Shown here piece after piece: positions 1-23,053 of a stretch of DNA of 36,362 bases (its first letter is position 1; every line of letters starts with the position of its first letter). This stretch comes from Prevotella sp. (GTDB taxonomy: Bacteria; Bacteroidota; Bacteroidia; Bacteroidales; Bacteroidaceae). Below the pieces are notes generated by a model, which ran no database searches, was not told the origin of the DNA, and saw only the letters and a program-made list of their open reading frames with translations. The position numbers were made by a program, and so were the translations under genes. The stretch covers positions 1 through 36,362 of the forward strand of contig JAFZAH010000044.1 of assembly GCA_017548275.1 (NCBI GenBank), written 5' to 3'.

Positions 1-108
1 AAATTCCTCGTCCGGATCTAATATCTCTTCAGTTCCTGCCATCAGAGGTGACTCGTGCATCACAGAGAGGTATTTCATCTCCGGTTTGATATACTTTCTC
101 ATAATCAT
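1..108 (-). CDS. small acidic MRKYIKP-type peptide, partial (3' end outside window)
   Basis: An open frame of 36 codons runs from ATG at 108 to the window edge without a stop, so the 3' end is missing. A second ATG at 102 gives MRKYIKPEMK and may be the real start. An AAAGG stretch lies just upstream. The N-terminus resembles the 71-aa protein at 18959-19174 (MKKTYIQPDVK): basic start, YI-P, an acidic residue then a hydrophobic one and K, an E-x-L segment, a Gly, then an acidic tail. The gene begins 9 bp after the stop of the 1647-aa secreted protein, the same gap as in the other pair, so the two are probably cotranscribed and translationally linked. There is no signal peptide or hydrophobic segment. 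Function is unknown. The reading frame is seen directly; membership of one family with the 71-aa protein is inferred from one short alignment. Confidence 0.7.
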   Translation of the reverse strand, partial: MIMRKYIKPEMKYLSVMHESPLMAGTEEILDPDEEF

Positions 109-117
109 TAGCCTTTC

Positions 118-3100
118 TTATTTTTTGATGAATTTCTTACCATTCTGGATAACTACGCCCTTATAGGACTTCTGCACACGCTGGCCGGCAGTGTTGTACA
201 TCGGAGCGTTCTGGTCGAGCATGTCAGTGCTGACAGTGTCGATGCCAGTTGTCTCGCCATCCTCAAGGAAGGTGACGCCCAACAATGCGGCAGCATTTGC
301 CAAGTCGTCTGACAGACGGAGATAAGCCTTTCCGGCACCCACTGTCTGAGTCTGTTTCGTGACGAGTTGGAATCCGCACTTGCCACCAGCCTTACCGTAA
401 CGGTAGATGCTCTTGGATTCTATATCATCCTGTGTCGGCGTGTAACCGTCAATGGCCGCCACGATCAGGTTGTCATCAAAGAACTCGTTGTAGTCATCTT
501 CGACCACAGGAATCTGATAGGTTCCGGCAGGACCCTTGACAAGGATACCCTCCTCAGCGGGAACGATGCCTTCGGTCATTGCCTCTGTAGCGACATAGAC
601 AGTCTTGGTGCCGATGGTGCCAGTAGATTTATAAACGGTCAGACCAGAGTCTGAGAAGTCAAGCGCATACTGGCTGCCAATGGTTGTTCCGTCGAAGCCC
701 TCCTTGATGGTCACCTCGATGAACTCAGGTATATTCGTGAGTGTGAAATTAACGATCTGGTCACCCTCAGCGAAACTTACATTCTCTTCAGTAGCGTCGT
801 CATAACCCTCCTTAGACACGGTCACGTTGTAGGTGCGGCCCGACTGGATGACGTTGATAGTGTAAGCACCCTCGGCATCGGTCGTGCCCTCATACATCAC
901 ATTATCTCCGTCATCGCTTACCAAAGTCACGGTGGCGCCCTCGACAGGAGCCTCGCTCTCGTCAATTACAGTACCAGAGATAGTGGCTGTAGCGGATTCT
1001 AACTGCATGTGCAGTACGGGTAATACTGAACTGGTCCAACTATTGGACTCAAACGTACTCTGCGTATCATTATAATGATAATAGGCTAAGCCGCTTGTTG
1101 CTGATGTACCTTTTTCAAAGTTTACGGTTTTCCAAGCAGTAGAATTGGAACGGACTACAATACGCAAAGCCTTACCAGACTCATAGACGAGCGGCTCATC
1201 AAAATTCAATGTGATGAAGTCCTCTAAAGCGGTAGAAGAACCCTTCGTCTCCCATACCTTTGTCTCGTCAGTCACGATTTGAGTCATTCCTTCTGTATCA
1301 TACAGACCATTAGCGGGTTGCTGCTGGGTTGTTTCATCTACCCACTCATACCAGACATTTAATGTAGAAGAATGCTCTGCTGCGGTCTTATAGCCTTTAT
1401 AAGTAATGGACTTGATCTTTGCTCCATCAGTAAGTTTGTAAGAGCCTGACAACACATCAGAAGTATAAAGTGAAACGGATTCACTATTATAATACATCAG
1501 ATTGAGCGGAACATAAGTCGAGGTACCATCAGCATCAGCAGTGGCTTCGCTTTGTGCCTCTTCCTCGGCAAATGTCACTTCTACTCCCTCAATTGCAGCG
1601 AGGTATTCACCACTTTCATCGGTAATAGCGATAGTGACAGGATATGTACCTACTTTGGGGAACTGGAGTTGCACAGTTAACTGTGTGCCGGCATCGGTCA
1701 ACTTATGGTTCATAGGAATGACCTTCTCGCCAAACGCCGTTTCTGCTATCTGGGAGTCGGATGTCTCATCGCCGATAACCCAGAACACATTATAAGCACT
1801 TGGAGCCAGATCTTCCAAGCCGAAGTTCTTCACGTTGATGGTAGCGGTGAAGGGAACATTCTGCATTGCCTCTGCAGGGATGCTGTAGTCGCCCATCACG
1901 AGGTCGTAATCCACATCAGCGAGTGTCAAACCGTAAATCTCATCGACATACGGACGATTGCTGATTTCAAAGCCGAGATAGAAGTCGCCAGCCTCGGGCA
2001 TCTCCACTGTAAAGGTCTGGAAATCGGTGGTCATGCCCTCCGTGGTGAAGATAGGAGTCTTTTCAACCTCTGTGTCGATCAGTTCGTCGCGGGTAGCAGC
2101 GGCATAAACCTTCACCTGTCCGTCATCCCAATATGAATTGTACAGTTTTGCGTCGAAGGTAAGGGCCTCACCGGCAGTGGCTGTCAGTTTCGGAGTGATA
2201 AACATGTTGTTAGTCGTGCTCGACGATGTGATAGCATAATCGCCAGTAGCGACATACGTGGTGCTCACATTGTTCTGATAGACAGAACCTGCAGGCCACT
2301 GATTGCTCTCAGAACCAAAGTTGGCATACCACTTGTTCGGGTCGAGTTTCGTACCGCTGAGGGCGATAGAGAAGGTAGGATCTACTTCTGTGCCCATGGG
2401 CCAGGTAATCACCATGTCGCCGCCATATTCACCTGCCTCAGTAGCCGAGAAGGTAATCGTCACAGCCTGAGCGGATGCGCTGAGGTCGTTCTCATCAAAC
2501 GGAGCCACGTCGAACGGAGGCGTCACATCAACCGAGAAGCCCTCGGGCAGAGTGATGCCGTGGATGTGGAGCGGAGCAGAACCCCAGTTGTAGATATAGA
2601 AGGTCTGCGAGTCCTCGGTGTTGGTCTTGCCGAAGGTAATCGGAGTGGTATAGTCGGACGGCTCCCACTTGCTGGTAGGAATCGTCTTGACGAAGTGGAA
2701 CACCGGCTCGTTGGTCACTTTGAGATTGAAGGTCTCGGTCTCATAGGTAGTGCCGTCGGTGAACTCGAACACCACTTTCGTGTTCTCGAAGAGAGTGGTG
2801 TTCTCCACCTCCGGAGTATATGAGAATGAGAAGTTCGTGGTGCTGGTGGCACTGGCAGTCAGAGCCACGGGTGTGCCCTCAACCACGTTGTCGCCGTAGA
2901 TGTACTTCACGGTGTAAGCGTCGGCTGTTTCATTGGTCAGCGGGATAACAGTAACGGTCGGTTTGGTCTGCGACGTACCGCTCTTGATGGATCCGCCATC
3001 CTCATGCGGCCAACTTACGCTCTTTATATAGATGTCGTGGTCAACAGGAACGAGTGTGCCACCGATGATGTTATCAAGACCCATGCCGTAGATATCGAAT

Positions 3101-5061: not shown

Positions 5062-5146
5062 AAGCGTAGAATTAAAGTGAATATTAAGATGTTTTTCGTT
5101 TGATTAAACTTGATGTTTCTTAAATAGCAGATTCTGTATCAACATG

Positions 5147-5177
5147 CAAAGATATGAATATATTTTGAAATATCAAA
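5147..5177 (-). promoter_or_regulatory. Bacteroidetes-type promoter of the 1647-aa gene
   Basis: On the minus strand TTTG (5177-5174) is separated by 19 nt from TATCTTTG (5154-5147). This fits the known Bacteroidetes housekeeping sigma consensus TTTG-N19-21-TAnnTTTG. Transcription would start near 5141, leaving an AT-rich leader of about 80 nt before the ATG at 5061. Confidence 0.85.
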
Positions 5178-5241
5178 CTTTACGGGAACTTTTCTTCAAA
5201 AATCAAGAAAAAACGAACGAAAGACGAGCACGAATAGTGAT

Positions 5242-5356
5242 GTCTAAGGAATTTTAGGAATAAAAGAACGAACACGAATGACACGAATATTTTAGTCTAA
5301 GGAATTTAGGAATAAAGGAATCGGCTGACGCCGAAGAATATTTTCCTAAATTCCTT
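5242..5356. repeat. intergenic direct and inverted repeats (AAGGAATTTAGGA words)
   Basis: Within the 468-bp gap between the 643-aa and 1647-aa genes, a 22-23 bp word (starting GTCTAAGGAATTT) occurs at 5242-5264 and again at 5295-5316. Its core at 5299-5311 pairs perfectly over 13 bp with 5344-5356, giving a hairpin with a smaller GC-rich stem (CGGC/GCCG) in the loop. CACGAAT words are scattered between the copies. There is no coding frame. The hairpin could end transcription coming from the 643-aa gene, or be a dispersed extragenic element. Confidence 0.7.
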
Positions 5357-5450
5357 GATTCCTAAGAATAGAGAGGACACAAATTTGTAAAAAAATCGGT
5401 CGGAAAATAATATTGATGGATAATTCGTGGAAATTGATGTGAGGATAAAC

Positions 5451-5500
5451 AACACGAGTCTCACGAATAAGCCGAATGGCGGGTTCGTGAGACTCGTGTT
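5451..5500 (-). terminator. 17-bp perfect hairpin after the 643-aa gene
   Basis: Arms 5451-5467 and 5484-5500 are perfect 17-bp inverted repeats (AACACGAGTCTCACGAA) with a 16-nt loop, 30 bp downstream of the stop at 5530. The sequence after the hairpin (GTTTATCCT) is only a weak U-tract, so it may be a terminator or a 3'-end stabilising stem. The arms contain two imperfect 9-nt repeats (ACACGAGTC, TCACGAATA). Confidence 0.6.
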
Positions 5501-5529
5501 GATATAAAAAGTGCGGATAGGGAGGGTGA

Positions 5530-7461
5530 TTATCTTACCACATATTTCCGTCCTTTGCTGACAACAATACCGCGATAAGAATCGCTCACACGCTGTCCGG
5601 AGAGGTTATAACGAGGAGCGTCGGCGGCATCGGAGGCGCGCACCTCGGTGATGCCCGAAACGATGTCTTTCAGGGCTACGGACTCGGCATTGGTAATGTC
5701 CATCTCCTTGAGGTTGTCGGCCGTCACGCTCTCGGTGTAACGTGTGACGAACGCCACGAGCGTCAGGTTCTCCGGCACCCATGCGTCATCGAGGGTCGTG
5801 GTGAACTGCGCCTGATAGGTGTCGCCCGTGACAAGGGCTTTGCTGCCCATCGGCTCGCTCATGAAGCGCCGCAACACATTATTGTGACGGTAATTGTTGT
5901 TACGTACAGTGCGGTTGCTCGCATTGACATAATACTGATAAGACTTCACGTAGTCCTCGGTCAGCAGCACCGTGACACCCACATCGCCGTAGATGGGCAG
6001 CGCATCCTCGGAGAGGGTGCCGCTCACATCTACCGTCAACTGCTTGGTGGCCGGGTCGTAGGCAGGTGTTGCCTCGATGGTGGCAAAGGAGGCGAAATCA
6101 ATATCCTGCGCGATGATGTCGGCCACAATGCCTGTGACAAACGCCGGTCCCACCATTTGCACATAGTAGTTGACATCGTAGGCGATGTAATCCTCGGCAG
6201 GGAAGTAGGCGCGATTGCTCGTGAAGCACGGATAGGTGTAAGCGTATGCCTGTGTGAGGTATTCCGACTCTGGAATAGCGAGGGGGTTGCCCGGTTTATA
6301 GACATTGACCATGCACATGCGGTCAACGGTGTTTTTCACCTGTTCAAACACACTGTTTACCGCATCGGCCAAAGGTTCGTCCTGGTCGGTGTATTGCTCC
6401 ACATACACTTTATTGCGTGCCAATGGATGTGCATAAACATAGAAACGTGCCTCCTGCACCTTGTCGGGGTCGGGAGTGACTGCCTCGCCGTCGATAGAGA
6501 AGGCATAGACCTTGATAGTATGTTTGCCCACGCTGATATCGTTTGTGAGATGGAGCACAGGCAAGAGCGACGCCGTAGCACCCGCTTTGAGTTTCTTGTC
6601 GGAAGGTATTGTCACAGGGGTTTCATCATCGAGTTGGTAAGCCAGTTCGAACGCATTCATATCATCACGGCCCACATTCGTCGCTCCAATCATCATCTCC
6701 ACACTCTCGCCGGGCTGCTTGTAGCGGAAACCCGTGTCAAGATAGGTGATATCTATGGCTTTGGAGGGCAATGTGCTCACATCGACGATGAGTTGCACGC
6801 ACAAAATGCCCGAACTCGTGATGGGATACCACCCCTCGCCCTGTGAGAAATTGCCGTAGAGCAGAAATTCATTGCCGCTCAGATTGCTTTCCGTCTGACC
6901 TTCCTCCATGCCAACGGTACAGAGGGCACCCGTCTCAGCGGCTACCATCTCTTCGCTCTCTGTATAGTCGAATCCGACTATCAGGTTCTCGTCGCCTGTC
7001 AGTTCAAACTCATTGCCTGCATTGAAGAACACATTGTTCCACCCCGGATAGGTACGTTGGTTCTGGACCACGGGGTCTTCGGTGATGGCACCGTCTTGCA
7101 CTTTATAGATAAAAGCCCGTGTGCGTCCGATGCTCTCTCCCACGGCAAAACGCACACCCACCACCTTACAGCCGACATACGACCGCAACATGTTGTTGGT
7201 GATGTATGCGCCTACGGGATAAGTGTTCGCCGCACCGATGTACGCATGGTCAATGGTGATACTGTCATCGGGCCAGTAACCTATCGGGCGCTGCATCGAT
7301 GATAGACCCTCAGCACGATTGGTTGTCGCCAGTGCCTTAGGTGCCGCTATGACCTTACCGTTCAACGACGCGGGGCACTCACCGACCGTGACTATCCTCG
7401 ACTGTGCCATGACAGCCGATGTGGTCAGAAGTGCAAACAAGAGGATTATCGTCTTTTTCAT
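5530..7461 (-). CDS. secreted Omp28-like protein lacking the usual CxxC, with C-terminal YNLSGQR signature
   Basis: A 643-aa protein with a signal peptide (residues 1-19, ending VMAQ). The first half is beta-rich. The middle segment starting NKVYVEQYTDQDEP, followed by NVYKPGNPLAIPESEYL and a Y-P-x-F-x-SNRAYF stretch, resembles the thioredoxin-fold region of Omp28-related Bacteroidetes outer-membrane proteins. The position where a CxxC motif is usually found reads TDQDEP, so redox activity is unlikely. The protein ends YNLSGQRVSDSYRGIVVSKG plus a basic tail. Its ATG (7461-7459) overlaps the TGA of the upstream 831-aa gene by 4 bp, which suggests translational coupling and partnership of the two products. 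The Omp28 relation is my judgement from pattern and should be treated as tentative; secretion is well supported. Confidence 0.85.
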   Translation of the reverse strand: MKKTIILLFALLTTSAVMAQSRIVTVGECPASLNGKVIAAPKALATTNRAEGLSSMQRPIGYWPDDSITIDHAYIGAANTYPVGAYITNNMLRSYVGCKVVGVRFAVGESIGRTRAFIYKVQDGAITEDPVVQNQRTYPGWNNVFFNAGNEFELTGDENLIVGFDYTESEEMVAAETGALCTVGMEEGQTESNLSGNEFLLYGNFSQGEGWYPITSSGILCVQLIVDVSTLPSKAIDITYLDTGFRYKQPGESVEMMIGATNVGRDDMNAFELAYQLDDETPVTIPSDKKLKAGATASLLPVLHLTNDISVGKHTIKVYAFSIDGEAVTPDPDKVQEARFYVYAHPLARNKVYVEQYTDQDEPLADAVNSVFEQVKNTVDRMCMVNVYKPGNPLAIPESEYLTQAYAYTYPCFTSNRAYFPAEDYIAYDVNYYVQMVGPAFVTGIVADIIAQDIDFASFATIEATPAYDPATKQLTVDVSGTLSEDALPIYGDVGVTVLLTEDYVKSYQYYVNASNRTVRNNNYRHNNVLRRFMSEPMGSKALVTGDTYQAQFTTTLDDAWVPENLTLVAFVTRYTESVTADNLKEMDITNAESVALKDIVSGITEVRASDAADAPRYNLSGQRVSDSYRGIVVSKGRKYVVR

Positions 7462-9953
7462 CGTTTCTGAACTTTTTTGTATTCATTGCCTGATTTCACG
7501 AGATAGATGCCTGCGGGCAAATCAGAGAGGCGTGTGCCCAGTTTCTGACCAGAGAGGTTATACACCTCGCCGTCGGTTGTCATCGTGTCGAGACGGACGG
7601 TTGCAATGCCCGACACCACATCGATGACATACTCGCCCATCTCCGACTCGCCATTCTTATAGATAGCCTTAATACCCACGACATGTTGCCCTGGAGTAAG
7701 CGACTCAAAGGTGTAGGTGGGAGTGGTAGATTCGCCCACTTTCACACCGTCGAGATAGATTTCATAACGTATCACATTGCCGTAATCGACAAAGGGAGCC
7801 TCGCCCTCGCCCGGACCTACGGTGAAATCGTCGAGTTGGAGGATAAACGCGTCATAAGAGGTGTAACGCACAGCGAGACGCACCTGATTGCCGGCAAAGG
7901 GGGCCAAGTCGGTCTCGAAGATGTTCCACTCCTGGGCGGGCACACTTTCCACGGTGCTGATGACGGAGAAGTCATTGGGGTCGGCACTGCCGTCGGAGAT
8001 CAGGAACTCCACCGACTCAGGATACATGGCGTCGTAAGATTTCAAAGTGGCACGTAGGGTGTACCCCTCGCGGATATCGAGCAGCGGCGAGATAAGCCAT
8101 TTGTCAGCCGTTCCGCGCTGCGGGGAGAAGAATATGATGGTTTTGTCGCCCGTGGGAGCCATGATGGCGAGGTCGGTGGGCAACATCGGCGGGTTGGTAT
8201 TCCACGGATTAAACACCATGGGTGCTATGGGTGTGGGATTAGTGGCTGTGCCGGAACCCGGGAATGACACGATGTTGGAGGTAGAGCCCAGTCCGATGGG
8301 ATAGACGGGCAACTGGTCGAAATCATACGTGGTCCAGTCACCAAACGAACCAGTTGCGAAGTCGGGATAATCCTCGAAACTGTCGGAGAATATCAACTCC
8401 TGGTTCCACCGCAACACGGCAGTGCCCATATCACCCTCAACGGTCACGTCGGCGGTGATGTTATATGGCGTAAGCATCCGGTCGGTAAGCAAAATGTCGA
8501 ACGACTGTTCGCCCGTGACGCGGATGGTCTGCTGATACTCATTGAACGCGCCCTCTTCCACATTGACGACATAATCGCCCAAGGGCAGTGACGCCAGCGA
8601 CACCTTGCCGTCGGCCACGGTAAGGTGGTATGCCTCCGACGTGGTGGTGTTCACCAGATGGAGCACTTCGCCGTCGGCGCTGATCACACTGTTGGTGCTG
8701 ACATTGAACTGTACCGGTGCAAATCCAGCGGCGTCGATATTCACCTCGGTGGTGACCAACTCACTCTCGGCAGCCTGATACACGGCTTTCACGCCGAGGG
8801 TATGGGCACCGGGCAACACACGGGTCAGCGTGTAGTTGTAGGCATCGGTGACACCCTTCTCCTCGCCGTCGAGGAAGATATGGAACATCTCATAGGGGTT
8901 GGCCTCGGAGCGGTGTGCACGGCGGGCCTTCGTCATGGCAATCGCTTTTTCGTAAGCATTGGCCTGCCCCACAAACACATCATCGACCATGAGCATGAAC
9001 GACCCGTAACGGTTGTAATCGCTGATATATCGGATGGCGAACTTCACTTGTTGTCCGGCGTAGGCGCTCAAGTCATATTGATAGGTCTTCCATCCCTTGA
9101 GGTCGGCAGTCTCGTAGTTGCCGGCATCAAGACGCACAAAGTCGCCTTGCACGGGATTGTCGATTTTGGTGGTGACATACACCTGGAAACGCTCGTAGTA
9201 TTGGTCGGCGGCTTTAGCCTTGAACATGAGCATATTTTCCGTGCCTGGGGTGACAACAGGTGAGATGAGCCAGTCGTCATTGGCTCCGCCCGATTCCGTG
9301 CGCGTGAATCCCACATACTGCTTGCCGCTATAGGGACGCAGGATGGGATAGTCGTACCACCAGGTGGGCTCTACGGTCAAGGGGTTGATAATCTGCGCGT
9401 ATTGGAACACGCAGCGGTTGGGATAATTGCCCAACAGCGCAGCGGCAGCCAGTCCGTCGGCATCGATGCCGGTCCACTCGCCAAACTGTATAGCAAACGG
9501 CTCATAATCCTCAAAATCGTCGAAGAACACGGGCGGTTCGGTGTTCCACTCCATCTGAATCTCGTTATTGCCTGTCACGGCATCGTGCTCGACGCGCGCC
9601 TGTAGGGCATAGGGTGTGCGCACCTTCTCCACGAGGTCGAGCGTCACGGTCAGGCCGTCATTGGTGGCGTCTATGTTGAATTCTGTCTCGGCCGTCTGAT
9701 AACCCTCGCGGCTCACGCTCACCTGATGAGGGCCGGCATAGACCTTGACTGTGCATTTGCCCTCAGCATCGAGTTTCACGCCCGAATAAGTCAGGCCGTA
9801 ATCAGAATGCTGCAATGTGACGGGCTGACCCTCAAGCGACTCACCCGTTCCTATGTTGACCACGATGTTGACGGTTTTGTCGCGTGTTTGTCCGAAAACA
9901 ACCGCCGAACCGCAAATGAATAGTAATAACAGTAGATATTTTTTCATTGCCAT
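7458..9953 (-). CDS. secreted protein with two choice-of-anchor J (cleaved-adhesin-like) domains
   Basis: An 831-aa protein. The signal peptide covers residues 1-22 (ending VFGQ); ATGs at 9953 and 9947 are both possible starts. Order: an N-terminal carboxypeptidase-regulatory-like sandwich (about 26-108); choice-of-anchor J domain 1 (about 145-335, with DDWLISP and a VDDV end); a PEGA- or Fn3-like linker (LDGEEKGVTDAYNYTL); a second small sandwich; anchor J domain 2 (about 510-720, with DKWLISPLLD and LDDFTVG); another LDGVKVG linker; and a type-A-sorting-like C-terminus (YNLSGQKLG, then LPAGIYLVKSG). This jelly-roll family occurs in gingipain-type adhesins and many secreted Bacteroidetes proteins and binds proteins or glycans. 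No enzyme domain is seen. It is probably cotranscribed with the 1131-aa gene upstream and the overlapping 643-aa gene downstream. Confidence 0.9.
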   Translation of the reverse strand: MAMKKYLLLLLFICGSAVVFGQTRDKTVNIVVNIGTGESLEGQPVTLQHSDYGLTYSGVKLDAEGKCTVKVYAGPHQVSVSREGYQTAETEFNIDATNDGLTVTLDLVEKVRTPYALQARVEHDAVTGNNEIQMEWNTEPPVFFDDFEDYEPFAIQFGEWTGIDADGLAAAALLGNYPNRCVFQYAQIINPLTVEPTWWYDYPILRPYSGKQYVGFTRTESGGANDDWLISPVVTPGTENMLMFKAKAADQYYERFQVYVTTKIDNPVQGDFVRLDAGNYETADLKGWKTYQYDLSAYAGQQVKFAIRYISDYNRYGSFMLMVDDVFVGQANAYEKAIAMTKARRAHRSEANPYEMFHIFLDGEEKGVTDAYNYTLTRVLPGAHTLGVKAVYQAAESELVTTEVNIDAAGFAPVQFNVSTNSVISADGEVLHLVNTTTSEAYHLTVADGKVSLASLPLGDYVVNVEEGAFNEYQQTIRVTGEQSFDILLTDRMLTPYNITADVTVEGDMGTAVLRWNQELIFSDSFEDYPDFATGSFGDWTTYDFDQLPVYPIGLGSTSNIVSFPGSGTATNPTPIAPMVFNPWNTNPPMLPTDLAIMAPTGDKTIIFFSPQRGTADKWLISPLLDIREGYTLRATLKSYDAMYPESVEFLISDGSADPNDFSVISTVESVPAQEWNIFETDLAPFAGNQVRLAVRYTSYDAFILQLDDFTVGPGEGEAPFVDYGNVIRYEIYLDGVKVGESTTPTYTFESLTPGQHVVGIKAIYKNGESEMGEYVIDVVSGIATVRLDTMTTDGEVYNLSGQKLGTRLSDLPAGIYLVKSGNEYKKVQKR

Positions 9954-9980
9954 AAGATTTAAGGAGGGGAAAAGAAATGA

Positions 9981-10078
9981 AGGAGTTCAGAAGTTCAGGA
10001 ATTCAGGAGTTCAGACAATACTATCGCAATTGGAAAAACATCGTCTGAACTCCTGTACTTCTGCACTCCTGAACTCCT
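9981..10078. repeat. large intergenic inverted repeat made of 8-bp words
   Basis: Arms 9981-10016 and 10043-10078 are 36 nt each with 5 mismatches; the loop is 26 nt. Each arm is itself a run of near-identical octamers (read on the minus strand: GAGTTCAG, GAGTGCAG, AAGTACAG, GAGTTCAG). The element starts 6 nt after the stop of the 1131-aa gene and ends about 27 bp before the start of the 831-aa gene. It could attenuate or process the transcript between the two secreted-protein genes. A near-match to a -7 box (TAGTATTG, 10023-10016) lies at the loop but I do not call it a promoter. Confidence 0.85.
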
Positions 10079-10084
10079 AAAAAA

Positions 10085-13000
10085 CTACTTCCTCGTCACA
10101 CGGTAAGTCTTCACGCTGTCGCCGTCTTTCACCTTGACGATGTAGAGGCCGCGTTCGAGCGACTGCATGGTGTCGTTGCCGAAGCCTTGCTTGACGAGCA
10201 CACCATTAGCGTTATACACACTCACCTCGGCATTGCTGCGGATGTCGGCATTCACCTCTTGTATGCCATCAGGGATTTCCTGACTGATATGGGTGAAAGT
10301 GAAATCGTCGAACAATGCAAACCAGTTGGCAGAAACAGTGGTATGACGCAGAGCCACATAGATGGGTTTGCCCTCGTATGCAGAAAGGTCGACACCATAA
10401 TGGTTGTAGTTGTTACCATCGAGATAAGGCATCTCGGTCTCTCTCATCACCACGGTGAAGTTAGAGGTCTTGGTGTTGTCAGTCTCGCTCACGAGCACGG
10501 TAACGCTATGCAGGTCGTTGTCGCCGATAAAGACCGAACCGGTGGTACCGAGGTTACGGGCATAGAAGTCGAAGGTGGCACCAGCCTGAGGAACAATCCG
10601 TTTGCTGATGAGCCAGTCGTCAGCGGCCGAGTTGTTGTCGGGTGCACAAGCGGCGATGGTGTGTGTGCCGGAGTGTGCGGGCAGGTTGTCGATGTTGTTG
10701 TTGGTCACCTGTGTGAAGGCATAACGTCCGCCATCATCCTCGAGGATAGTCAGATAATAGTTGGACTTGTAGTTCACCTGTTTGTCCACGTCAATCATGG
10801 TGAAGTCGGTCTTCCAGTCATAATCGAGCGGATTCATCTCGAAACCGTAGTAGAGCACATCGGCAGCCAAGCCCTCGCCACGCACGAGGAAGGTGGCGGT
10901 CAGACCGCTCTCGAACTCGACGGCCATCACGTCTTCCACCACCTGAGCCGGTTTATTGGCTGTGAAGGTGATGTTGAAAGGAATGCCTTCGCCTGCCGCT
11001 AACTCCTGGCCGACAGGGATTGAACTGACAAAGTCGTTGGTGTTGAAGGTCACGCTCTTCACGGTCTCGGCCTGTTTGCCGTTGTTCTTGATGGTGAAGA
11101 TGTCGCCGGAATTGACAGCTTTCTGGTAGTTCACCTTCAAAGCGTCCCAACCGTCCTTGTTGAACTTCACACCACTCTCCACGGTTCCGTCGATGACGAC
11201 ATTGTCGAGGGCTCCATAGCCATAATATGTAACCAATGCGGTGGCAATCCAACGGAACTGCACAATCTTTCCAGCATATTCCTGAAGGTCAATGGTCTCA
11301 TTGCGCCAGTACTTTTTCCCGTCTTCGTCAGAGTTCTCCGAGAGATAGGATGCCTGGTGCCATTCGCCATCGCTAAATATTTCAAACACCAACTCGTCCT
11401 TACCGTTTCCACCGGGTACATTCTGTTTCTCCAATAGGCCAGACTCGTCGATAATAAGGTCACTTGGATGGGCATTACCCCAAACAAAGGAGATGCTCAT
11501 GCCCTGGCCATCTGCAGGCAGTTTGAACTCTGGCGTGGTAAGTGTAACACATTCATTGGCATTAAGCCATCCTGCAGCCAAACTTGTTCCTGTTCCTCCG
11601 TAAGGATAAAGTGAATTAGGACTCCACTTGGCAAAGGCATACTGACCATTAGTAACGCTCAACCATCCAGTGGGAACCGGCAAGTCTTTTGTGCACTCAT
11701 CGAAGTTCTCCTCATAGGGGAATTCCATGACGGAAGCGTCGGGCTGGGTGGTAAAACTCCATACAAGCACATCGTCTTCCTTGGCAGAACCTGCGGCATT
11801 GTAGGGCACAATCTTCCAGTAATAAGTGGTTTCATAACCGGCTCTGGGAACGGTATAGGTGAGTGCGTCAGCCACATCCACGCCATTGACGAGGTCGTCA
11901 GCGGCATCGTTGCTGCCCACATACACTTTATAGCCTTCGGCGAACTGTGCAGGTCCCCAATCGAGTTTGATGTCACGCGGATAGACGTTCTGCGCGCCGA
12001 GTTTGGGAGAAATCATGGTCACACCTTTTGGCACTCCACCGGCTCCGTAGACATTGGGAAGCAGCACGCGATCGAGATAGACATCGGCAAACGGGTCGAT
12101 ATCGCCGTCTTCCGATGTGACACCTGTCAGCACAAAGCGCACTTTGGAGTTGTTTGTACCTGTACCCAGGTCAAGGGTCTTCGTCTCGCCATAACTCATC
12201 AGTTCATAGTCGAAAGTCCAGAGGTTAATCCAAGATTGTCCACCGTCATAAGAAACCTCCACGCTGAAGTCATTCATCTGATAGGTGTCACCTTCTTCAC
12301 TCTCAAAGAAATTGTAATAGGTGAATGTAAGTTGTCCGCCATGACTCAGGTCGAGACGCGGAGAGGTGAGGTAAGAATTCGACAGCGAAGCGGTGGCGTA
12401 GGCCGACTGATCACCTTCGATGGCGGTGCTGCGTCCTGACCATCCGTTTTGGTTGCAGGTCCATCCTGCCGGCGGGAAATACCCTTCGAAACTCTCGAGC
12501 ATATATCCTTCGGGAACATCCTGCTTGGTAGTGGAGTAAGCGATGGTGACATCACCGCCATTGGTGTGTATCACGACATTGCCGTTGACGGGACTGGTGA
12601 GAGACGCGCTATAAGCGAGTTGGAACTGCACGCTCTCGTATTTCTTGAGGTTGACGCTAGCGGGGTCAAGTGTGCATGACAAGCCTGCGGGCAGGTCTAT
12701 ACCCGTGACCTGCAAGCCATTGAGTCCCATGTTGGTCATGGTGATGACCTCGCTATAGAATTTCTCGCCGATATACATGTCGGGGAAGATGTAACTGTTG
12801 GTGCTCATCACCGGACGCGGACCCGTCTCCTCGTTGACGCGATAGACTTTCACATCGTCCATCCATACAACATTGGCCACATCGGTCATCATCTTATAGA
12901 CAAACGCCAGACGCACTTTCTGACCCTTCCAGTCAGCCAAACTGACTTTCGGTGAGTATGGCGACCAATCGCTGATGGGGAACGTCATGACACCACTCTC

Positions 13001-13480
13001 GCGCAACATATTCTCATTTTGGATGGAGAAAATGGTTTCAGCCCCTGCCAGATTGTCATTCTCAACCACACGCACCTGAAGGTCGTATTTCGAGTTGTCA
13101 TAGGCATTCATCGGGCTGACACGGAAGATGAAATTCAACTCATAGAAATCGTTAAGGTCCAATTCGGGCGAGAGAAGGATTTCCTCACGGGGACCTTTTC
13201 CGTCTTCCGAATAAGAGATAGGAGCATCGCAGGAGGCACAATGCTTACCGTTGATTGTGGGATTGTCCTCGCTGTTGGTGTAATAGTTATGCCACACATA
13301 CGAGGCTTTGCTTCCTTTGTAACTGTTGACGGTTGTCCAACCCTCACCAGCGGCTACCGGCTGCGAGACGAGCGTAGTGCTCTCAGTCTCAAAGTCTTCA
13401 AACAGAATGGTCTGGGCCTGAGCCTTGGGAGCCCATAGCAACGCAGCGGCAGCAAGAATGAAGAAGTAGTGTTTTTTCAT
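10085..13480 (-). CDS. large secreted protein with four choice-of-anchor J domains
   Basis: A 1131-aa protein with a signal peptide (residues 1-22, ending AQAQ). Domain order: anchor J 1 (about 23-216, ending WMDDVKVY); an anchor D-like sandwich (about 217-318); anchor J 2 (about 320-485, LESFEGYFPPAGW); an Fn3 domain (about 490-585, YETTYYWKIVPYNAAG); anchor J 3 (about 586-770, ENFDE, ALDNVVID); a second anchor D-like sandwich (about 770-875); anchor J 4 (about 876-1062, DDWLISKRI, LFDDFTF); and a C-terminal sorting-like sandwich (VYNANGVLV, LERGLYIVKV, ending RVTRK). The cleaved-adhesin/anchor J modules suggest binding to host or dietary macromolecules at the cell surface; no peptidase domain is present. 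It is transcribed from the promoter at 13538-13568 and is likely the first gene of a three-gene secreted-protein unit with the 831- and 643-aa genes. Confidence 0.9.
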   Translation of the reverse strand: MKKHYFFILAAAALLWAPKAQAQTILFEDFETESTTLVSQPVAAGEGWTTVNSYKGSKASYVWHNYYTNSEDNPTINGKHCASCDAPISYSEDGKGPREEILLSPELDLNDFYELNFIFRVSPMNAYDNSKYDLQVRVVENDNLAGAETIFSIQNENMLRESGVMTFPISDWSPYSPKVSLADWKGQKVRLAFVYKMMTDVANVVWMDDVKVYRVNEETGPRPVMSTNSYIFPDMYIGEKFYSEVITMTNMGLNGLQVTGIDLPAGLSCTLDPASVNLKKYESVQFQLAYSASLTSPVNGNVVIHTNGGDVTIAYSTTKQDVPEGYMLESFEGYFPPAGWTCNQNGWSGRSTAIEGDQSAYATASLSNSYLTSPRLDLSHGGQLTFTYYNFFESEEGDTYQMNDFSVEVSYDGGQSWINLWTFDYELMSYGETKTLDLGTGTNNSKVRFVLTGVTSEDGDIDPFADVYLDRVLLPNVYGAGGVPKGVTMISPKLGAQNVYPRDIKLDWGPAQFAEGYKVYVGSNDAADDLVNGVDVADALTYTVPRAGYETTYYWKIVPYNAAGSAKEDDVLVWSFTTQPDASVMEFPYEENFDECTKDLPVPTGWLSVTNGQYAFAKWSPNSLYPYGGTGTSLAAGWLNANECVTLTTPEFKLPADGQGMSISFVWGNAHPSDLIIDESGLLEKQNVPGGNGKDELVFEIFSDGEWHQASYLSENSDEDGKKYWRNETIDLQEYAGKIVQFRWIATALVTYYGYGALDNVVIDGTVESGVKFNKDGWDALKVNYQKAVNSGDIFTIKNNGKQAETVKSVTFNTNDFVSSIPVGQELAAGEGIPFNITFTANKPAQVVEDVMAVEFESGLTATFLVRGEGLAADVLYYGFEMNPLDYDWKTDFTMIDVDKQVNYKSNYYLTILEDDGGRYAFTQVTNNNIDNLPAHSGTHTIAACAPDNNSAADDWLISKRIVPQAGATFDFYARNLGTTGSVFIGDNDLHSVTVLVSETDNTKTSNFTVVMRETEMPYLDGNNYNHYGVDLSAYEGKPIYVALRHTTVSANWFALFDDFTFTHISQEIPDGIQEVNADIRSNAEVSVYNANGVLVKQGFGNDTMQSLERGLYIVKVKDGDSVKTYRVTRK

Positions 13481-18868: not shown

Positions 18869-18920
18869 CAAGACTGAATCAGGACAAAAGGCCCTATTAG
18901 CCCATTAAGGGTCAATAATG

Positions 18921-18958
18921 TAATAATCCCCCTGCCTCACATGACAGGGGGATTATTA
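18921..18958. terminator. bidirectional intrinsic terminator
   Basis: A perfect 14-bp stem TAATAATCCCCCTG (18921-18934) pairs with 18945-18958 around a 10-nt loop. The GC-rich core is flanked by A/T pairs, so both strands carry U-rich 3' flanks. It sits between the convergent CvfB-like gene and the 71-aa gene, whose stop codon begins at the next base. Confidence 0.9.
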
Positions 18959-19174
18959 TCAGTGTCTTTCCCACAGATTCGTGCGATAATAGATATCTTC
19001 CCATATATGGACTTCGTTGGTATGGAAAGCGCCATCGTAATCGTCTTCCTCCTCTTCATCTTCGGTATCTGAGGTGACGGTGTTGCCGTCGCTGCCGGTG
19101 ATAATCACTCCTAATAATTCCTCGGCATACACCTCAGCCGATTTCACGTCGGGTTGAATATAGGTTTTCTTCAT
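18959..19174 (-). CDS. 71-aa acidic MKKTYIQP-type peptide
   Basis: The short protein begins MKKTYIQPDVKSAEVYAEEL, continues with a small hydrophobic stretch LLGVIITGSDG, then has a strongly acidic segment (TSDTEDEEEEDDYDG) and a C-terminus with Trp, His and Tyr. There is no signal peptide. An AGGAG site overlapping the TAG stop of the upstream gene lies 6 nt before the ATG, an unusual good ribosome site for this phylum. It starts 9 bp after the 1091-aa secreted-protein gene, so the two are probably cotranscribed and coupled. It resembles the truncated frame at 1-108, which has the same position behind the paralogous 1647-aa gene. Function is unknown: a chaperone-like partner, a regulator or a modified-peptide precursor are all possible, none proven. 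Confidence 0.8.
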   Translation of the reverse strand: MKKTYIQPDVKSAEVYAEELLGVIITGSDGNTVTSDTEDEEEEDDYDGAFHTNEVHIWEDIYYRTNLWERH

Positions 19175-19183
19175 GGCACACTC

Positions 19184-22100
19184 CTATTTAACCAACACTT
19201 TCTTGCCGTTCGTCACATAGACACCCGGTTGCAATGACTTCGTGTCACTTACCTTTCGACCGCCAAGATCATACACGTCACTGCCGAAGGGATTGTTTTC
19301 GACATTGCGGATACCCGTCACCTCGGCACCTTCAATCATGATTCCATATTCATTGGATGTGGCGTCGGCAGACATCTCAAAATAGCCGCGCAAGCCTAAG
19401 AGATGCGCACCACTGCCACCACGACGGATGGAACCCTCATCGGTCACCCCATACATGCCTTCCATGGCTGGGGCTTCCATCGGCTCGTAGGAACCGTGGA
19501 ACGTGACACCGTCCTTGGTCTCAGACTGAGGCGTGGTGGTGAAACTGAAAATGACCACATTACGGAAGGTGATGGTCTCTGCCACTGCGGGGATTTTCAG
19601 CAGATAGGGATAACCTGCCTCCATTCTCTCCACAGGCGAGAACTGCAACACACCTGCGCTGAAGCCTTTCAACTCGTATGCCGTGGTGCCTTCGCCAAAG
19701 ACGGAGAAGTCATCCACCGCGAAGGGCAGGCAAATGGTGTTCCACTCGCTTGTCACGGTGTAAATCAGGTTGACCACGGGTTGATTGCCTTCCTCAATGG
19801 TGTTGCCGCCGTTTTCGCTCAGCGTGTAAGCGGGGGCGATGGTCAGAGACGCCACATCGGTTTTCAGTGTGCCGCCTTCATAGGTCACTTCTATATATAC
19901 AGGCAGGTCTTCTCCGGGTACTTCGGGCAAATATGTGAAGGTGAACGTTTTTGTGCTGTTGGCGGTCACGGATGCATCGTCTATGACAGCCACCGGTTCG
20001 CCATTGACGTATAGTACCGCCGAAATAGCCTCGTCCTTGCCGGTGAGTTCCTGCAGGGTCACAGTGGCGGTGTATTCCACATACGCTTTTCCTTCAGCAG
20101 GGATGTCGCTGGCAATGATAGCCATGTCATGCTCTTTGACTGCAAGTTTGAGACCGAGGAAGTTGTCGAGCATGGCGAAGGTGGCGGTGAAGCGCAGATA
20201 ATAGTATCCGTCGGCGGGAGCGGTGAAGGTTACGGTTCCCGACTCGGTGTAACTTTCGACATTGGCATCTATCTTGGTCCATGTCTCACGCTCGTCGTTG
20301 GAGTATTCTATCACCAGCGGCTCATCGTTATACTGCATACCGATATAGAACTGCAGTTCGTCGCCAGCCTTTGCCTGCAAGCGAGGTGTGGTCAGTGCCT
20401 TCGGCGCGTTCAACGAGCGGATAGAGGCCATGTAAGTGCCGTTGCTGCCCTCGTATGTCGGTGTAGTCACTTCCCAATTGCCCTCACTGATCCAGTACTG
20501 TGGCATCACGCCTCCTTCGAAATCCTCATCCCAGAGGTTCGGGTCTTTGGTCATCGCTTTCACGTTGATGCTGACAGCCGACAGGCCTGTATTGGCAGGG
20601 GTGACGGTGATGACACCGGTCTTCTCGCCAAATGTCTCTTCAGGGAAGTGGAATGTCACATCGAAGGTTGCCGATTCTCCGCCTGCCACTTCGAGTGTTT
20701 CGGGACTGACAGTGAAGTCCGTGCCGTCAGAAGCGATGTTCACGCTCAACGTGCCCGTTCCGACATTGGCGACGGTATAAGTGTGGGTAGCGTCGGCGGT
20801 CAACAGGCCGAAGTCATCCTCAGTCACAGTATTTCCGTCATACGTCACTTCCATCTTCGGTGCATTGTCATTGTAATTGAATCCGGCGATATCGTCGATG
20901 GCAAAGCGCATACCCTCGAAAAGCAGAGCGTTGACTGAGGCGGGGATGTCGGTCAGTTCGACGGTAGTATATGTGTCAGCCCCAAACTCTCCGCCATCGG
21001 CATTGAAGGTCTTGGTGTAGGCCGTCCAGGTATCACCGGCATCAGAAGAGCCTTTCACGGTGAGTTCACCCATTGACGAAAGCAACTTACCCCTGATGGC
21101 GAGCGCGTAACCTTCCTTTATAAGAATGGCTGGCGATGTCAGTGTATTGGTGCCATATTCAGCCGTAGCCGTCCCGTCGGTAATAGTGAAGCCCATGGCC
21201 GTCCATGCCGGTGGCAACGAAGTGAAGTCAAGGTGCTCGGCATCTGCAGGATAGACATAGCCGCTGACGGGTATCTCAAACGATTTGACATCCACGGCAT
21301 CGGTAGTCAGTACCACGGTGCCGCTCTTGATGCCATGCGCTCCGGTAAACAACCCTACGGCGAAGTCGGCTGAAGCACCTGCTGCCACAGTGAGCGTGGC
21401 TGGCACATTCAATGACTTGGGAACACTGAAAGTGATGTTCATGTCTGCTGTGCCGTCGTTGGTCACGGTAAATGTCTTCTCAGCCGTTTCGCCCGTAGCC
21501 ACAAAACCGAGGTCTTGCAGCGTGCCGTCAGTATCAATAGCGAAACGTGCGCCGGCTAAACGAACAGTGATGACAGCGGGCGTGGCAAACACTTTATCGG
21601 TGAGGTCCTCTTTCACGTAGAACGCCACCTCGCCGTCTTTCGTGGCTGTTCCGTTATAAGTGAGAGAAACGTCCTGAGTGGCTCCCTGAGCGATAGCCAC
21701 GGGTTCGGATATGGCGATGACGTTTTTCGACGCATCGAGCAGACTCACCGTCACATTGTCAGCAGCGGTAATATCCACATTTCCTTTATTCTCTACAGTG
21801 GCGGTGAATGTGGCGGTGTAATTGCCTGCGGCATCGGTAATGACAGTCGTCTCATCAGCTTCGAACGCATTCACGGCGACGGCTTTTACCTCCGAGCCTT
21901 CTTCATAGATTGTGGCGGAGAAATCGTCGATGGCGGCGCAAATCATGAAAAAGGCCACCATTTTGCCTTCAGAGCCCAAATCAATGGAGAATGAAGACCA
22001 GGACGATGTGGTCGGCTTCACTGTTCCTATCTTATTGCCGATGGTGTAAGAACCGCCGTCCTCATTCACCTCATAAAGGCTGACCTCCACGGAAGAAAGA

Positions 22101-22459
22101 TAAGAACTGGATGTGCGTGTGGCCTTGGCTTTGAACGTCACTTCACCTGTCAGTTTCTCCGGGACGGCGAGATAGGCAGTGTTGGTTTTTCCGTAACTAT
22201 AAGCGATGCACTTGCCCTCATTGCCGTCGGAAATGAGGCCGTAATAACCGGTGTAATAATCCGCATCGGTATAGATTCCGCCGTTGCCGACGATGAACCA
22301 GCCGTTGCTCAGACTATTGCCTGTGCTCCAACCCGACACAGGGGCTCCGTCTTTCAGGATGGTCACGTTGTCGAAATTCTCTGTCAGGGTCTCAGCCTTG
22401 GACTGTGTCCATCCCAGGACAAACATCATCAACGCGATAAGTAGTTTTAATTTGCTCAT
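19184..22459 (-). CDS. 1091-aa secreted multidomain protein, paralogue of the 1647-aa protein
   Basis: The start chosen is ATG at 22459 (MSKLKLLIALMMFVLGW). A frame-open TTG at 22510 would lie inside the promoter -7 box and so cannot be the start. The signal peptide ends near KAE. Order: a lectin-like jelly roll (LTENFDNV, about 25-190); a CARDB-like sandwich (AVAVNAFEAD); anchor D (GTLQDLGFVATGETAEKTF); an anchor J-like segment; a second anchor D (DFGLLTADATHTYTV); the junction DPNLWDEDFEGG; an anchor J domain; the GLKLAVKEHDMAI junction; a second CARDB-like sandwich; a beta-rich C-terminal region; and the tail YDLGGRKVSD, LQPGVYV, KKVLVK. The module order matches the 1647-aa protein. No catalytic site is seen. 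A surface-binding role is inferred. Confidence 0.9.
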   Translation of the reverse strand: MSKLKLLIALMMFVLGWTQSKAETLTENFDNVTILKDGAPVSGWSTGNSLSNGWFIVGNGGIYTDADYYTGYYGLISDGNEGKCIAYSYGKTNTAYLAVPEKLTGEVTFKAKATRTSSSYLSSVEVSLYEVNEDGGSYTIGNKIGTVKPTTSSWSSFSIDLGSEGKMVAFFMICAAIDDFSATIYEEGSEVKAVAVNAFEADETTVITDAAGNYTATFTATVENKGNVDITAADNVTVSLLDASKNVIAISEPVAIAQGATQDVSLTYNGTATKDGEVAFYVKEDLTDKVFATPAVITVRLAGARFAIDTDGTLQDLGFVATGETAEKTFTVTNDGTADMNITFSVPKSLNVPATLTVAAGASADFAVGLFTGAHGIKSGTVVLTTDAVDVKSFEIPVSGYVYPADAEHLDFTSLPPAWTAMGFTITDGTATAEYGTNTLTSPAILIKEGYALAIRGKLLSSMGELTVKGSSDAGDTWTAYTKTFNADGGEFGADTYTTVELTDIPASVNALLFEGMRFAIDDIAGFNYNDNAPKMEVTYDGNTVTEDDFGLLTADATHTYTVANVGTGTLSVNIASDGTDFTVSPETLEVAGGESATFDVTFHFPEETFGEKTGVITVTPANTGLSAVSINVKAMTKDPNLWDEDFEGGVMPQYWISEGNWEVTTPTYEGSNGTYMASIRSLNAPKALTTPRLQAKAGDELQFYIGMQYNDEPLVIEYSNDERETWTKIDANVESYTESGTVTFTAPADGYYYLRFTATFAMLDNFLGLKLAVKEHDMAIIASDIPAEGKAYVEYTATVTLQELTGKDEAISAVLYVNGEPVAVIDDASVTANSTKTFTFTYLPEVPGEDLPVYIEVTYEGGTLKTDVASLTIAPAYTLSENGGNTIEEGNQPVVNLIYTVTSEWNTICLPFAVDDFSVFGEGTTAYELKGFSAGVLQFSPVERMEAGYPYLLKIPAVAETITFRNVVIFSFTTTPQSETKDGVTFHGSYEPMEAPAMEGMYGVTDEGSIRRGGSGAHLLGLRGYFEMSADATSNEYGIMIEGAEVTGIRNVENNPFGSDVYDLGGRKVSDTKSLQPGVYVTNGKKVLVK

Positions 22460-22657: not shown

Positions 22658-22668
22658 GAACAATAAAT

Positions 22669-22738
22669 GTTCAACGTTCAATGTTCAATGTTCAATGTCA
22701 AACGTTCAACGTTCAATGTTCAACGTTCAATGTTCAAC
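22669..22738 (-). repeat. ten tandem 7-bp units after the DUF3467 gene
   Basis: Seventy bp of ungapped heptamers. On the minus (sense) strand they read GTTGAAC or ATTGAAC, with one variant GTTTGAC. The array starts 3 bp after the TAA at 22744-22742 and is followed by the terminator hairpin. Because 7 is not a multiple of 3, translated frames show a 7-residue period (MFNVQCS-like), which is an artefact. Confidence 0.95.
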
Positions 22739-22741
22739 GTC

Positions 22742-23053
22742 TTACGCTTCTCCCTTTCCGAAGGGGTTGATGGTGCGCGGCTGACGGGTGGGCAGTTCGA
22801 TGCGTCCGAACTCCTGCTCGTATTTCACGATATTCTCCTGCAATGCCATGGCGAGGCGCTTGGCATGCTCCGGAGCCAATATGACGCGACTGCGAACCAC
22901 TGCTTTCGGCACACCCGGCATCATCTGTGCACAATCGACGATAAACTCTGAACTGGTATGTGATATGATGGCGAAATTGGAATAAACGCCTTGTGCCATA
23001 TCGGGCGTCACTTCTATCTGGAGTTGATTGCCCTGGGGTTTCTTTTCTTCCAT
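22742..23053 (-). CDS. DUF3467 family protein
   Basis: A 103-aa protein, with QLQIEVTPDMAQGVYSNFA near the N-terminus, then HTSSEFIVDCAQMMPG and a VVRSRVILAPEHAKRLAMAL stretch, typical of DUF3467. The family is widespread in Bacteroidetes, small and cytoplasmic, with no established biochemical role; placement directly after rpoC is common as far as I know. It lies 132 bp past rpoC, behind a strong terminator, so it either has its own unrecognised promoter or depends on readthrough. Confidence 0.9.
   Translation of the reverse strand: MEEKKPQGNQLQIEVTPDMAQGVYSNFAIISHTSSEFIVDCAQMMPGVPKAVVRSRVILAPEHAKRLAMALQENIVKYEQEFGRIELPTRQPRTINPFGKGEA

Follow-up and report, generated by a model that had tools for sequence, protein, structure and literature searches.

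YxxP peptides encoded behind type IX secretion cargo in Prevotella: putative precursors of phosphorylated peptides resembling those of Bacillota

What is the function of a 71-residue acidic peptide that is encoded immediately behind a giant secreted protein? The question is raised by contig C44 (JAFZAH010000044.1) of the Prevotella sp. assembly GCA_017548275.1, which holds 3.22 Mb in 56 contigs; the whole contig of 36,362 nucleotides was analyzed and is referred to here as the window. A sequence-only reading of this DNA had described a two-gene cassette that was present twice and perhaps copied as a whole, and had named a cytoplasmic chaperone, a regulator, or a precursor peptide as candidate roles for the small product. 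Of these three, the evidence favors the precursor peptide. We consider it likely that the 71-residue peptide is the precursor of a ribosomally synthesized and post-translationally modified peptide (RiPP) of the kind known as linear phosphorylated peptides (LPPs), co-expressed with cargo of the type IX secretion system (T9SS) and matured in trans. This explanation would tie hypothetical short MKKxYIxP frames, which recur in the searched Prevotella-type genomes outside curated families, to a likely maturation pathway, and would place RiPPs of the LPP type outside Bacillota as well. In addition, it implies an arrangement of RiPP genes where many dispersed precursors seem to share a single set of enzymes, and would connect a RiPP pathway with type IX secretion, which delivers large proteins to the surface of these bacteria.

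The two genes are present as described, on the minus strand and 9 bp apart (Table 1). A strong terminator-like hairpin lies at the stop codon of the peptide (−34.1 kcal/mol for a 76-nucleotide stretch, z −4.25, a stability reached by none of 200 shuffles), and appears to close a two-gene unit of cargo and peptide. The second copy, at the left edge of the window, also exists and follows the gene of a 1647-residue protein by 9 bp when read from its first ATG, but the contig ends inside the frame, and two of three profiles begin instead at its third codon (MRKYIKPE), which would widen the gap to 15 bp. That the same spacing is found twice had been offered as evidence for a common unit; it carries little weight, because the gaps behind 65 tail-bearing partners in relatives range from −4 to 389 bp, with a median of 24. 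Two copies is moreover an undercount, as a profile of 85 family members has 19 matches in this genome, where relatives found with the window peptide sit behind other large proteins. Searching the genome with a DNA pattern for the start of the peptide gave no match. The description of the partners as paralogous holds loosely (best local match 27% identity, E 3e-13), but the feature they share is a short secretion tail. Copying as a whole unit is likewise borne out in part: window positions 1–141 are identical to the first 141 bases of contig C40, and about 600 bp, comprising the peptide start, the tail, and some more of the cargo gene, agree at 83% identity over the 600 bases searched, but the cargo proteins of the two contigs differ by eye further upstream. 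An ungapped comparison of the two lost register after about 200 bp and was not used past that point. Because the 141 starting bases are identical, the left-edge frames of C44 and C40 are probably one and the same, joined by an assembly-graph overlap at a repeat; a search with window positions 1–600 revealed no further contig bearing the remainder of this peptide.

The peptides form a family with a conserved start and a divergent remainder. Among 40 genomes searched, this one included, 20 are peptide-positive, and all of these belong to the window's genus, of which 24 genomes were sampled. Outside this genome there are 119 matches, and 88 loci from 19 genomes were read (28 chosen automatically and 60 mostly by rank). 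The profile is insensitive, having missed G041, G096, G108, G193, and G194, whose loci contain a peptide. No Pfam or NCBIfam family matches the 85 members at E ≤ 0.01. In 88 non-redundant peptides, the tyrosine and proline of a YxxP motif are both present in 86, and hydrophobic residues follow at positions +5, +7, +8, +10, and +16 from the tyrosine, the last of these being hydrophobic in 93%. Serine is found at Tyr+19 in 31% and at Tyr+20 in 44%, compared to 0–14% at the remaining offsets from 0 to 39, and is followed by an acidic stretch, often with a tryptophan. Outside this leader the family is hypervariable, with a mean column identity of 12%. No signal sequence is apparent by eye. The pooled ratio of nonsynonymous to synonymous changes (pN/pS) is 0.36 for 25 close pairs from relatives, and the peptide genes are thus under purifying selection. 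In genomes G075 and G305, peptides of the form KKYxKPDFEVI(E/N)L... occur in several copies per genome (L206, L210, L212, L214, and L216), approximately 250–275 bp behind proteins that by eye resemble Rpn or transposase proteins.

The genes in front of the peptides most often end in a common tail. In 19 same-genus relatives, the tail profile matches the upstream gene at 65 of 87 loci (the 88 read loci minus one without an upstream gene in the available DNA), compared to one of the 67 remaining genes at these loci (Fisher p 6e-23). A count by regular expression (65 of 88) held at least one false tail, L064, and the profile count is used instead. Together with the 19 matches in the genome and the purifying selection, this enrichment confirms that the cassette is real and far beyond chance. 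In the window's own genome, 16 of 50 examined short-tail proteins are followed by a peptide and 34 are not; the tail matches there number 61, three of the 11 left out being in the window, and two peptide matches (C4:13794 and C17:21318) lay outside the examination of upstream genes. The own-genome count is partly circular, because the tail profile was built from partners in this same genome, which is not the case for the count in relatives. The sequence-only reading had named anchor J/D proteins as the partner class. This class is too narrow and was ruled out, since what the partners share is the tail; one of them is alpha-amylase-like as judged by eye, and the 1091-residue protein matches a choice-of-anchor D family below its cut-off.

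The tails themselves resemble short C-terminal domains (CTDs) of T9SS cargo. The established tail family TIGR04183 matched one of ten partner C-termini, below the cut-off, and did not match the CTD of the 1091-residue protein. This poor performance may be due to the tails being shorter, and short CTDs were therefore tested instead. A profile of 67 tail sequences, one of them the false tail L064, gave p 7.7e-5 and a probability of 62% in comparison with TIGR04183-type tails, whereas two unrelated profiles gave p values of 0.15 and 0.16. In 43 of 65 tails a T[GA]I motif stands 28–56 residues from the C-terminus, compared to 29 of 507 control windows. For Prevotella intermedia, the available text of a published study describes 48 predicted cargo proteins whose CTDs are short, at 43–55 residues, and have a preferred PT/GI site, an invariant glycine in motifs B and D, and either GxY or GxN (PMC11969387). 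The tails studied here agree with these signals in length, in the T/GI cleavage motif, and in motifs B, D, and E, and the GxN subgroup is also found (L111 and L119). The CTD of the 1091-residue protein has a T/GI cleavage-like motif, a Gly/Tyr motif B, a GxY motif D, and a GKKxxxK end. A T9SS is present in this genome, as SprA (TIGR04189) is encoded on contig C43 with a score of 2678.7 bits, and we regard the partners as T9SS cargo with short CTDs. The available text on P. intermedia differs in mentioning no downstream peptide partner, the words "downstream" and "operon" having no occurrence in that paper, and titles and abstract openings in the open-access literature yielded no paper joining T9SS cargo and a peptide of the type bound by RiPP recognition elements (RREs). 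In front of some peptides (L063, L079, L082, L096, L110, and L128; L200, L213, and L217 in G240), the upstream protein ends otherwise, in NGxxYxxxG or a FNVAGQQVK-like sequence, which is possibly another secretion tail.

Candidate maturation enzymes are encoded on contig C56, where genes for a protein resembling type I signal peptidases (SpI) and for an HprK-like kinase precede that of the genome's sole PqqD match over the cut-off, a putative RRE (P0006, PF05402, 45.9 bits). Related loci were taken from two sources: the best 80 of a scan with the kinase gene, and a survey of 295 Bacteroidales genomes, of which 47 are HprK-positive and 30 (own included) had loci available, leaving 29 outside this genome. 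The trio stands together in 77 of the best 80 loci, in 75 of these with identical order and strand, and among the matches listed the nearest relatives by kinase gene are Prevotellaceae. Neither the peptide profile nor the tail profile has a match in the flanks of up to 6 kb on each side of these 80 Prevotella trio loci. When solved structures were searched with the RRE sequence, the matches were all weak (E 0.19 and worse). Kinase residues H144, G162, G164, K165, and D185 are invariant in 13 sequences, the pattern GxGK[ST]..DD is found in 80 of the 80 best loci and in 26 of the 29 others, and the kinase profile matches HPr kinase 1ko7 at E 3.3e-5. The Ser..His..Asp/Glu pattern of SpI is present in 80 of 80 best loci and in all 24 SpI-like proteins found among the 29. 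The archaeal signal peptidase family sigpep_I_arch (TIGR02228) is matched over its cut-off by P0008, L357, and L363 and below it by L365 (47.3 of 51.85), and P0008 also matches SEC11A (E 0.003); the protein of this genome has a weak TIGR02227 match only. At four loci (L345, L357, L362, and L368; the Pfam cut-off is narrowly missed at one) SpI continues in a single frame into the membrane domain of an ATP-binding cassette (ABC) protein, which is possibly a single-protein cleave-and-export enzyme. Genes that by eye resemble nucleotidyltransferases occur in five of the 29 loci (L348, L349, L351, L353, and L358); none was noticed at the trio locus of this genome, and two such nucleoside triphosphate (NTP) transferase-like proteins had no match among solved structures. 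An rpoD-like gene, named by eye, lies ahead of the trio in eight of ten listed loci. Between the rpoD-like and HprK-like genes of L231, a gene at 7621–8214 encodes 197 residues with a signal-peptide-like start, and genes for about 130–190 residues directly precede the kinase in the ten listed related loci, possibly as a fourth member of the operon.

Peptide and enzymes meet in other genomes. At six of the 29 kinase loci outside this genome (L343, L353, L361, L363, L365, and L366), the peptide lies beside kinase and SpI; five of these also contain the PqqD-like RRE, which was not found in L366, and four also contain a T9SS cargo gene. At five of the 29 (L343, L361, L362, L363, and L365), the gene immediately before that of the RRE encodes cargo with a TIGR04183 tail. 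The fullest arrangement is an operon-like row in G143, from another family, that encodes TIGR04183-tailed cargo, a PqqD-like RRE (P0009, PF05402, 55.4 bits), a peptide, an HprK-like kinase, an archaeal-type SpI, and an MsbA-like exporter (P0010). Within the window's own genus, a peptide precedes the trio at L257. Occurrence across genomes follows suit: among the 295 genomes, all 11 that are peptide-positive by profile have the kinase, compared to 47 of 295 overall (p 5.7e-10; the kinase match is weak in five of the 47), and leaving out G000, G143, and G306 the count is eight of eight (p 1.5e-7). Within the window's genus, all 15 genomes that have a full-length kinase contain peptides, versus five of the nine that lack one (p ~0.012, calculated by hand).

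The combination recalls the LPPs, described by Popov et al. 2026 as linear polyphosphorylated peptides whose loci encode SpI, an RRE, an HprK-like kinase, an NTP transferase, and an MsbA-like exporter, and whose precursors have a YxxP leader with the motif YxxPxVLxHQxIxFETxxS (PMC13381572). According to the accessible portions of that paper, LppK phosphorylates Ser3, LppS cleaves with the aid of the RRE, and LPPs are restricted to Bacillota, as stated in its discussion. The Bacteroidales loci share the discrete RRE, the HprK-like kinase, and the archaeal-type SpI. They also share the YxxP leader, the hypervariable core, and a serine some 18–20 residues after the tyrosine, which in LPPs is Tyr+18 as counted from the published motif. 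An MsbA-like exporter adjoins SpI in G143 and may be fused to it in the four loci named above, and NTP-transferase-like genes, named by eye, occur in a minority of loci. The Bacteroidales loci differ in their taxonomic position, in the acidic end that often carries a tryptophan, in the T9SS cargo partner, and in the scattered precursors of Prevotella, on which the enzymes would have to act in trans. Because HQxIxFET is absent from the leader, we call the peptides LPP-like rather than LPPs by sequence. The agreement in machinery and in Tyr–Ser spacing gives good support to the idea that the peptide works like an LPP. The N-terminal YxxP leader would then be bound by the small PqqD-like RRE protein, the HprK-like kinase would phosphorylate the serine just past the leader, and the archaeal-type SpI-like enzyme would remove the leader by a conserved hydrophobic residue, at an L/AGS-like site that by analogy would lie two residues before the serine (compare T/AQS). 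The acidic core may thereafter be exported, which is a guess. The Prevotella trio would constitute one conserved operon, here outside the window, that acts in trans on about twenty precursors, and because most of these are encoded directly behind short-CTD cargo genes, each would be made with its cargo. A role of the mature peptide with the cargo at the surface is likewise a guess. A bolder proposal, that T9SS cargo proteins are individually paired with dedicated enzyme-matured phosphopeptides, with one stationary operon serving about twenty scattered precursors and each peptide acting with, or attached to, its own cargo at the surface, is put forward as a tentative and rather doubtful one; if true, it would represent a RiPP pathway turned secretion accessory.

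Two other groups of RiPPs invite comparison. Phosphorylated lasso peptides of the paeninodin-like and Bsf types are described with an RRE, an HprK-like kinase, a [Y/W]xxP leader, and serine phosphorylation, but the trio-locus peptidase here is SpI-like (PMC10368454, in its accessible portions). No macrolactam cyclase or B2 protease was noticed by eye among the genes listed for these loci, with flanks of mostly 1.5 kb and no profile run. The double-glycine-leader RiPPs of Bacteroidales that are exported by peptidase-containing ABC transporters similarly have leader–core precursors, as far as the consulted text of PMC10352776 goes, but the leader here is of the YxxP and not the double-glycine type, and a Pfam scan of exporter P0010, the one scanned whole, did not find the C39 peptidase domain.

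A number of observations weigh against an LPP-like precursor coupled to T9SS cargo. Both window copies are atypical, with the serine after the leader at Tyr+23 in P0001 and, counted by hand, a threonine at +20 in P0002; the published LppK did not accept the S3T exchange (PMC13381572). The profile finds no tail in 22 of the 87 upstream genes, although some of these (L081, L111, and L119) are tail-like by eye while others are not, and two copies in the window's genome follow other genes. The best solved-structure match of the kinase profile is an ABC ATPase, with HPr kinase second, the kinase and SpI-like protein of this genome match their families weakly, and no exporter was noticed in the 20 kb around its trio. 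The eight genomes of the reduced co-occurrence count correspond to seven families rather than eight independent ones. G001 (79% complete) and G023 (56% complete) have ten and seven peptides, respectively, and no kinase match; in G013 and G018 the trios are divergent, and the profile finds no peptide at E ≤ 0.01. The kinase occurs in six of 16 SprA-lacking genomes versus 41 of 279 with SprA, and the T9SS link is therefore a specialization at best. G248 has both peptide and kinase but no SprA match. As a marker of trio-bearing genomes SprA is useless, being present in 279 of 295, and its distribution counts against strict T9SS dependence. In G248, the peptide and the HprK-like gene lie about 3.6 kb apart (L228 and L355) with polysaccharide-export-like genes between them; Bacillota LPPs have also been reported near capsule loci.

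These observations have to be set against what other explanations can account for. The peptide could be an unmodified cytoplasmic helper, either a chaperone or a regulator of translation or secretion, that keeps the cargo export-competent. The lack of a visible signal sequence, the acidic character, the order of cargo and peptide with mostly short gaps, and the hairpin behind the peptide would all agree with this, but a helper explains neither why like peptides adjoin RRE, kinase, and SpI genes nor why the leader contains YxxP, which is known from RRE substrates (PMC13381572 and, in the parts consulted, PMC12710340). Hypervariability past the leader also speaks against it, as do the tail proteins of this genome, about two thirds of those examined, that have no such peptide, and we find it improbable. 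The frames could even be chance or 3′-end by-products without protein function, as they are short, variable, and without a Pfam or NCBIfam family; with the start, the YxxP motif, and the serine placement conserved and the pN/pS ratio low, this is hardly credible.

A different possibility accepts the RiPP precursor but regards the cargo as a mere neighbor, either because modules of tail and peptide spread by recombination between the 3′ ends of cargo genes or because the peptide serves as a bacteriocin or signal that has nothing to do with the cargo. The stretch of CTD and peptide start common to C44 and C40 would fit such recombination, and the kinase of SprA-lacking genomes, the peptide and kinase of G248, and other contexts such as the peptides some 250 bp behind Rpn-like proteins in G075 and G305 point the same way. 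On the other hand, several families show the link to the tail, each time with other cargo, and at five loci it is the RRE gene itself that the cargo gene immediately precedes. We find this possibility improbable. We therefore retain the LPP-like precursor, made together with T9SS cargo, as the preferred explanation.

Table 1. Positions in the window of the two cassettes and their parts
Feature	Position	Strand	Basis or remark
Second YIxP peptide P0002, first 36 codons only	1..108, start 108 or 102	−	cut by contig end
1647-residue secreted cargo protein, upstream of P0002	118..5061	−	open reading frame, domain search
Short T9SS CTD of the 1647-residue protein (TT/GI ... GVVIQNGKKFIKK)	121..246	−	tail profile
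Strong terminator-like hairpin at the stop codon of the 71-residue peptide	18919..18961	−	folding energy versus shuffles
71-residue acidic YIxP peptide P0001 (MKKTYIQPDVK...), putative RiPP-like precursor	18959..19174	−	open reading frame, family profile matches
1091-residue secreted cargo protein	19184..22459	−	Ig domain of the HYDIN/VesB-like kind; N-terminus resembles a signal peptide by eye
Short T9SS CTD of the 1091-residue protein, C-terminal 43 residues	19187..19315	−	tail profile A3

The remainder of the window offers some further observations. On the minus strand from 118 to 13480, four large proteins are encoded in a row, of 1647, 643 (Omp28-like), 831, and 1131 residues (Cleaved-adhesin/Por_Secre_tail), and all four match the tail profile, some of them weakly. 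The same contig carries rpoB, rpoC, and genes for EF-Tu and ribosomal proteins L1 and L10. Near-repeats of CAATGTTCAACGTT form a run at 22667–22735, beside rpoC and a DUF3467 gene (22742–23053).

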